Below, in pieces: positions 12,558 through 13,023 of a stretch of 64,000 nucleotides of DNA. Position numbers and translations under genes: made by a program. The notes beneath the pieces are model-generated. The model was given only the letters and a program-made list of their open reading frames with translations, was not told where the DNA came from and ran no database searches. Every line of letters begins with the position of its first letter. Positions within the stretch are counted from its first letter, which is position 1. This stretch comes from Mucor racemosus (lineage: Eukaryota > Mucoromycota > Mucoromycetes > Mucorales > Mucoraceae), in contig JAPEHQ010000015.1 in NCBI GenBank assembly GCA_027405735.1, positions 372,001-436,000 on the forward strand, in the 5' to 3' direction.

Positions 12558-13023
12558 ATGGCCCCTACTGTCAAGTCCAAGAAGAACGCCGAGTCCATCA
12601 ACTCTCGTCTCCAACTCGTCACCAAGTCTGGCAAGTATACTCTTGGTTACAAGACTACCTTGAAGACTGTCCGTCAAGGAAAGGGTAAGTTCATATCAGA
12701 CTACACTTTATAATCTTTATCGGGGGGCAGGAGCCCAAAAAAAAACCATTGTAGTCTTCTGTCCCTTGGGCAGAGATTGTTCCCCCGAATCGTTTTGCTA
12801 ACATTTTGTGCGTGTTTTTATAGCCAAGTTGATCATCATTGCTGGTAACTGTCCTCCTCTCCGTAAGTCTGAGATCGAGTACTACGCCATGTTGTCCAAG
12901 ACTGGTGTTCACCACTACAACGGTAACAACATTGATCTTGGTACCGCTTGTGGTAAGCTCTTCCGTACCAGTGTTCTCTCCATCACTGATGCCGGTGATT
13001 CTGATATCTTGAGCGCCCAATAA
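12558..13023 (+). CDS. RPL30: 60S ribosomal protein eL30
   Basis: Two coding exons (12558-12684 and 12824-13023) encode 108 residues, the normal length of eL30. The protein belongs to the L7Ae/L30e family of kink-turn binders and sits at the 40S-60S interface. Recognisable blocks are SRLQLVTKSGKYTLGYK, KLIIIAGNCPPLRKSE, YYAMLSKTGVHHY and the ending ITDAGDSDIL. Codon use is much more biased (GGT, AAG, CTC, GCC) than in neighbours, as expected for a highly expressed gene. The 139-nt intron is longer than almost all others here and holds a strong hairpin described separately. The gene converges on the glutamyl-tRNA synthetase gene, whose stop is 125 bp away. Confidence 0.97.
12722..12785 (+). 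promoter_or_regulatory. Intronic kink-turn hairpin, candidate eL30 autoregulatory element
   Basis: Inside the RPL30 intron, GGGGGGCAG (12722-12730) pairs over 9 bp including G-U pairs with TTGTTCCCC (12777-12785), and GCCCAA (12733-12738) pairs over 6 bp with TTGGGC (12766-12771). Between the stems is an asymmetric internal loop with GA (12731-12732) on one side and AGAGA (12772-12776) on the other. That 2+5 purine loop, and the flanking G-C and G-U closing pairs, agree with the eL30-binding kink-turn of budding yeast RPL30 pre-mRNA as I recall it, in which excess protein blocks splicing. The element lies 37 nt after the 5' splice site and 12 nt before a likely branch site GCTAAC (12797-12802). 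Confidence 0.8.

Follow-up and report, generated by a model that had tools for sequence, protein, structure and literature searches.

A kink-turn-type element in the coding introns of both eL30 genes of Mucor racemosus, a candidate site of splicing feedback

Ribosomal protein eL30 is an established regulator of its own genes in yeasts. In Saccharomyces cerevisiae, Rpl30 represses the splicing of its own transcript, and in Schizosaccharomyces pombe the product of rpl30-1 represses splicing of rpl30-2 (described in PMC4695336). The S. cerevisiae element, a kink-turn in RPL30 (formerly L32), is located in the 5′ untranslated region (UTR) of the message, includes the 5′ splice site, and is able to form again in the spliced mRNA, where it represses translation (PMC6298567, PMC13232506, PMC5640933). 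An orthologue from Sulfolobus also binds the yeast target and inhibits splicing (PMC7732827). The present analysis concerns an element of this type in the fungus Mucor racemosus, found at positions 12722-12785 of a 64,000-nucleotide (nt) stretch of contig JAPEHQ010000015.1 (positions 372,001 to 436,000, forward strand), referred to here as the window. It lies within the sole coding intron of an eL30 gene, and it recurs in the coding intron of the only other eL30 gene found in the genome.

A standard kink-turn consists of a three-base bulge followed by G.A and A.G pairs, the whole being placed between two helices (PMC5061560). In the kink-turn of the yeast L30e pre-mRNA, U.G occupies 3b.3n and A.G occupies 2b.2n (PMC5061560, PMC4316175). 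Related arrangements are not confined to yeast. The fungal rpl30 motif of Li and Breaker (2017), a hairpin with a purine-rich internal loop in eL30 genes, is known from 26 species, with 47 examples that lie for the most part in 5′ UTRs, and was published with the same hypothesis of eL30 feedback (PMC5640933). Mucor, Rhizopus and Phycomyces do not appear in the main text of that paper, although phyla are not named there at all. In archaea, an L7Ae-family protein folds a kink-turn in the 5′ leader of its own message and thereby switches it off, much as is proposed below for eL30, but the archaeal element acts on translation and not on splicing (PMC6298567).

At the window locus, two exons join to encode a complete eL30 of 108 residues (Pfam PF01248, E 1.3e-27), and the element occupies positions 38-101 of the 139-nt intron that separates them (Table 1). 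The first-pass annotation of this DNA had described two stems of 9 and 6 base pairs (bp) around a GA/AGAGA internal loop, closed by G-U on one side and G-C on the other and situated in the only coding intron, and this description proved exact. Read outwards from the loop, the outer helix comprises nine contiguous pairs (G.U, A-U, C-G, G.U, G.U and four G-C), of which the first G.U closes the loop on that side; the inner helix comprises six and closes it with G-C. In kink-turn numbering, an AGA bulge is followed by G.A and A.G pairs and by U.G at 3b.3n. The sequence features of a standard kink-turn are therefore all present, namely the three-base bulge, GA opposite GA, and flanking helices (6 and 9 bp).

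Comparison with S. cerevisiae RPL30 reveals both likeness and difference. Each element resides in the species' own eL30 gene and has a purine-rich asymmetric loop with U.G at 3b.3n and A.G at 2b.2n (PMC5640933, PMC5061560, PMC4316175), and the ligand is likely the same. The rpl30 motif, as characterized in the main text of PMC5640933, is likewise a hairpin with a purine-rich internal loop in the eL30 gene. The window element differs from the yeast element, and from most examples of the motif, in its location within a coding intron. As the first-pass annotation had claimed, its place is not that of the yeast element: the outer helix begins only after 37 intron bases, leaving the 5′ splice site outside. 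The companion claim of a mid-intron site close to the likely branch site also held. A CTAAC lies 15 nt past the C run of the outer stem and 22 nt ahead of the end of the window intron, and a TTAAC in the second gene lies 18 nt past the outer stem and 17 nt ahead of the intron end, so that the element is 15-18 nt upstream of a branch-like sequence in both copies. Since the element is wholly intronic, it is absent from the spliced eL30 mRNA, and any control exerted through it would act on splicing and not on translation of the mature message, in contrast to that of yeast.

The second eL30 gene is located on the minus strand of contig C1 (G000:C1, L002/L003). It encodes the identical 108 residues, with 18 base differences across a coding sequence of 327 bases (16 at third positions), and its coding intron of 174 nt occupies the same position in the gene. 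The introns of the two copies were compared in five parts, using 300 mononucleotide shuffles for each. The two kink-turn strands are identical at 14/14 and 16/17 aligned bases, with one gap column each, and none of the 300 shuffles did as well. By comparison, the apical loop matches at 19/28 aligned bases with 23 gap columns (137/300 shuffles as good), and the 3′ part of the intron at 21/26 with 20 gap columns (72/300). Downstream of the stop codon, no similarity between the copies was seen above that of shuffles (286/300 as good). That the kink-turn strands were retained as the apical loop and the 3′ part of the intron drifted apart suggests that these strands are under selection, though they are not alone among the non-coding stretches of the gene in being conserved. 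Within the outer stem of the second copy, which has one mismatch, the pairs read G.U, A.C, C-G, A-U and then five G-C; relative to the window copy, changes from G.U to A-U and from G.U to G-C preserve pairing at two positions.

A resemblance of this kind might in principle arise by chance, if a G-rich and a C-rich run within an intron happened to fit the kink-turn descriptor and were common to the two copies by descent alone. The copies are indeed homologous and hence are not independent cases, and the fold energy of the whole intron is ordinary. Nevertheless, we consider this explanation highly improbable. When the window intron was shuffled 60,000 times with its dinucleotides preserved, GGAG...CAGAGAT at an allowed spacing appeared in 12 of the shuffles, with an inner stem of at least three pairs in two cases and with both stems of at least three pairs in none, against observed stems of six and nine pairs. 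The corresponding counts in 60,000 shuffles of the second intron were 3, 0 and 0; the fair test for this copy is the inner-stem count (0/60,000), because its own stems have only three inner pairs and one contiguous outer pair. The conservation of both strands amid divergence of their surroundings likewise speaks against mere descent.

Searches of larger sequence space gave a similar result. When both stems were required to have at least two pairs, a single place was returned from both strands of the 64-kb window, the eL30 element itself. The pattern GGAGCC-N25-55-GGCAGAGATYG matched twice in the 53,218,998-base genome (both strands), each time in an eL30 coding intron, and a reversed-pattern control gave no match in the same 53.2 Mb. 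This pattern was composed after both introns were known, a point in favour of the chance explanation, and the genome result therefore speaks for its specificity. A looser pattern, CAGGAG-N28-58-GCAGAGAT, yielded seven genome matches as compared with one for its control, and among the seven the stricter pattern fits the two eL30 introns only. Lastly, a looser descriptor run over 27 sequences (148,076 bases, many overlapping) recovered the window element in its six overlapping records, plus two unrelated places (L016, L025).

Features of the protein are consistent with binding. The window eL30 matches yeast L30 of structure 1T0K at 71 of 106 aligned positions, and yeast F85 and K32 align with its F89 and K36. 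According to the account in PMC3706390, F85 makes the most prominent contact to L30 RNA in yeast; at the equivalent residues of the rat protein, Y89A leaves 37% of the binding to yeast L30 RNA and K36A cuts it by 60%, these being the largest effects among the mutants tested. Taken with the element itself, this makes it probable that free eL30 binds the intron kink-turn, and that binding would block recognition of the branch site and with it splicing. In such a scheme, eL30 produced in excess of the demand for new 60S subunits would bind the nascent intron, and the bound protein would fold or lock the kink-turn and its G-C-rich stem beside the branch site, thus hindering the U2 small nuclear ribonucleoprotein. 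Retention of the coding intron brings a premature stop into frame (after 51 residues in the window copy and 45 in the second), so the unspliced RNA, with its stop after 45-51 codons, would either be degraded or yield no eL30. The simplest account would be the feedback of yeast RPL30 with its site elsewhere in the gene, where we infer both eL30 binding and splicing repression from the sequence.

The ligand could instead be another L7Ae-family protein, such as Snu13 or Nhp2, with the intron encoding a small nucleolar RNA (snoRNA)-like RNA. Kink-turns are bound by the whole L7Ae family (PMC5061560), and other members are present in the genome (11 exon-level PF01248 matches, eL30 exons included). 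Still, there is little to commend this alternative. The U.G at 3b.3n is that of the L30e kink-turn. A box C/D snoRNA was rejected, as neither the C box (RTGATGW) nor the D box (CTGA) occurs in either intron. At gathering scores, Rfam models matched nothing in the window, and nothing in its eL30 gene region up to E 5. Near the second copy, a search up to E 1 returned a single sub-threshold place, common to both overlapping loci; it is outside the gene, ~1 kb upstream of it.

A more substantial alternative arises from the folding of the introns. The predicted lowest-energy fold of both is a competing hairpin and not the kink-turn, and the excised elements likewise fold otherwise. In the competing fold, the 5′ strand of the kink-turn pairs with the apical loop, with a main helix of 14 pairs in the window copy and 11 in the second, and the AGAGAT strand pairs with upstream sequence, by 9 and 11 pairs, respectively. 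To gauge these helices, the kink-turn strands were held fixed and the loop or the upstream part was shuffled 3000 times. Shuffled loops paired as well in 48/3000 cases for the window copy and 4/3000 for the second, and shuffled upstream parts in 656/3000 and 0/3000; on these counts, support for the competing fold is good in the second copy but weak in the window copy. In the 174-nt intron of the second copy (L003), an upstream stretch of 10 nt matches the reverse complement of CAGAGATCGT, part of the kink-turn 3′ strand, without a mismatch; its counterpart in the window copy is weak. The upstream partners of the two copies may be non-homologous, since that of the second falls in an alignment gap. 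When 5′ fragments of increasing length were folded by prediction, the loop hairpin of the second copy had formed by 110 nt, ahead of the 3′ strand; that of the window copy did not appear before 100 nt, a length that already includes most of the 3′ strand.

From these folds it might be supposed that the conserved element is an intrinsic, zipper-like stem that helps splicing by shortening the intron, without any binding of eL30, and that its letters have been kept for the sake of the competing hairpin. Such stems are reported to be common in ribosomal-protein introns of yeast (PMC12311795, PMC13232506), and they would accord with the energy minimum of both introns, with the ability of the two competing helices of the second copy to beat nearly all shuffles, and with the very base that breaks a kink-turn pair there (A.C), since this base suits a G-C pair in the outer helix of the competing fold. 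In the window copy, on the other hand, pairing in the competing outer helix does not rise above chance, and that in the inner helix does so only weakly. Moreover, a zipper would leave unexplained why the eL30-type letters GGAG/CAGAGAT occur in eL30 genes and have no other full match in the genome. On balance, a zipper without eL30 appears unlikely, albeit less so than the snoRNA and chance alternatives.

If eL30 does bind, as we favour, the competing fold may be part of the control. Without protein, the intron would rest in the competing hairpin, with the kink-turn strands paired elsewhere, and eL30 would tentatively act by switching the fold to the kink-turn. A fuller version, which we put forward as a possibility of distinctly lower standing than binding itself, is a two-state splicing switch: at rest the strands are paired elsewhere and the intron is spliced, and surplus eL30 refolds it to the kink-turn by the branch site. 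Because the competing stems differ greatly in strength, the copies would respond at different eL30 levels, one serving as a sensitive brake and the other as a near-constant supply. A comparable arrangement is found in the RPL7B intron of S. cerevisiae, where a protein-binding structure excludes a competing stem and the stem of the duplicate gene is stronger (PMC12311795). There, the competing stem helps splicing (PMC12311795), and the protein and structure differ from those considered here, where the switch is predicted by energy alone.

Several observations weigh against an eL30-binding kink-turn. The second copy has its A.C mismatch at the second outer pair, giving one contiguous outer pair (nine with one mismatch allowed), and its inner stem has three contiguous pairs as compared with six in the window copy. 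Because the mismatch comes after a single outer pair, the second copy fails a descriptor that requires two contiguous outer pairs. The kink-turn fold is predicted to cost 4.9 kcal/mol over the competing fold in the window copy and 15.0 kcal/mol in the second, in a nearest-neighbour model that covers neither the special stability of a kink-turn nor the protein; given the latter cost, equilibrium binding in the second copy might not suffice. The window intron as a whole does not exceed its shuffles in stability (z -0.16; 81/200 as stable), and whole-intron stability was rejected as evidence for the element. Conservation is also not peculiar to the kink-turn strands: the 5′ part of the intron matches at 29/32 positions with 34 gap columns (1/300 shuffles as good), and the 150 nt upstream of the ATG at 102/124 with 52 gap columns (0/300). 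The element is known from two sequences of one genome, which are duplicates of each other, and the branch sites of both introns are presumed, having been assigned by motif alone. We take the GA/AGAGA loop to be that of yeast RPL30 letter for letter. Lastly, yeast K32 is without direct RNA contact in the structures as described in PMC3706390.

The claim of the first-pass annotation that the eL30 feedback of yeast exists here as well is thus upheld in part. The element is exact and persists in a second eL30 gene despite divergence of most of the intron around it, and the protein keeps residues relevant for binding of the yeast pre-mRNA element; set against this are the A.C mismatch in the outer stem of the second copy and the preference of both introns for the competing hairpin.

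Should eL30 bind, the locus would represent a yeast-type feedback that relies on an RNA ligand of the same kind at another site in the gene, without the translational arm. It would also be a testable case of a regulatory circuit that has persisted or re-arisen while its site differs, and the two copies would make a case for competing stems setting different thresholds of one feedback. The S. pombe rpl30-1/rpl30-2 system is similar in having two eL30 genes, the product of one repressing splicing of the other's transcript, and differs in that nuclear decay is involved; the account in PMC4695336, as far as seen, does not mention a kink-turn.

Table 1. Coordinates of the eL30 gene, the kink-turn-type element and the predicted competing structures in the window
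Feature	Position	Strand	Remarks
Putative 5′-UTR intron of eL30	12494..12551	+	58 nt, GTAAGT...TTTTAG; probable, by eye
eL30 coding exon 1	12558..12684	+	codes for residues 1-42, plus the first base of codon 43
Sole coding intron of eL30	12685..12823	+	139 nt, GTAAGT...TAG; intron call by sequence
Predicted competing outer helix, 5′ strand	12710..12718	+	partner strand 12772-12780 (AGAGATTGT); pairing within chance range in window copy
TAA, in frame on intron retention	12711..12713	+	51-residue product
Predicted competing inner hairpin	12720..12769	+	12720-12733 with 12756-12769, 14-pair main helix; sequesters kink-turn 5′ strand
Kink-turn outer (NC) helix, 5′ strand	12722..12730	+	12730 = 3n (G of U.G pair)
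Kink-turn loop, short side GA (2n, 1n)	12731..12732	+	
Kink-turn inner (C) helix, 5′ strand GCCCAA	12733..12738	+	
Kink-turn inner (C) helix, 3′ strand TTGGGC	12766..12771	+	
Kink-turn loop, long side AGAGA	12772..12776	+	three-base bulge AGA, then G1b A2b; numbering inferred from kink-turn definition
Kink-turn outer (NC) helix, 3′ strand	12777..12785	+	12777 = 3b (U)
Branch-site-like CTAAC	12798..12802	+	presumed branch A 12801; role judged by motif
eL30 coding exon 2 including stop codon	12824..13023	+	

As far as the literature searched shows, what is new here is the place of the element, within the coding intron by a branch-like site in both gene copies; the idea of eL30 feedback and the fungal rpl30 motif have already been published. 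Open-licence literature, searched by title and the start of the abstract, contained no eL30 kink-turn in the coding intron of such a fungus among the matches listed. The main text of a report on 17 conserved structural RNAs in fungi (PMC8216456) contains neither 'L30' nor 'RPL30', and two further papers (PMC3744415, PMC2911113) merely mention RPL30 in the parts seen. A search with the eL30 protein for relatives returned only two archaeal loci among genome contigs and none in one scan of viral contigs.

A putative intron also precedes the start codon of the window gene, and the descriptor scan of the window gave no eL30-type kink-turn match within it. The second eL30 copy likewise has a GTAAGT...CAG stretch ahead of its start codon.

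Elsewhere in the genome, three L7Ae-family matches on contigs C1, C11 and C17 (L006-L008) have equal PF01248 scores (82.7 bits each), which suggests that another family member is present in three copies. Both neighbours of eL30 in the window are on the minus strand. Upstream, at 11718-12080, two open reading frames (ORFs) joined by eye match BORCS6 (PF10157, E 2.2e-20) and probably form a two-exon gene. Downstream, an ORF at 13810-14274 corresponds to the catalytic domain of a glutamyl/glutaminyl tRNA synthetase (PF00749, E 4.2e-47), and the minus-strand ORFs adjoining it look by eye like further exons.
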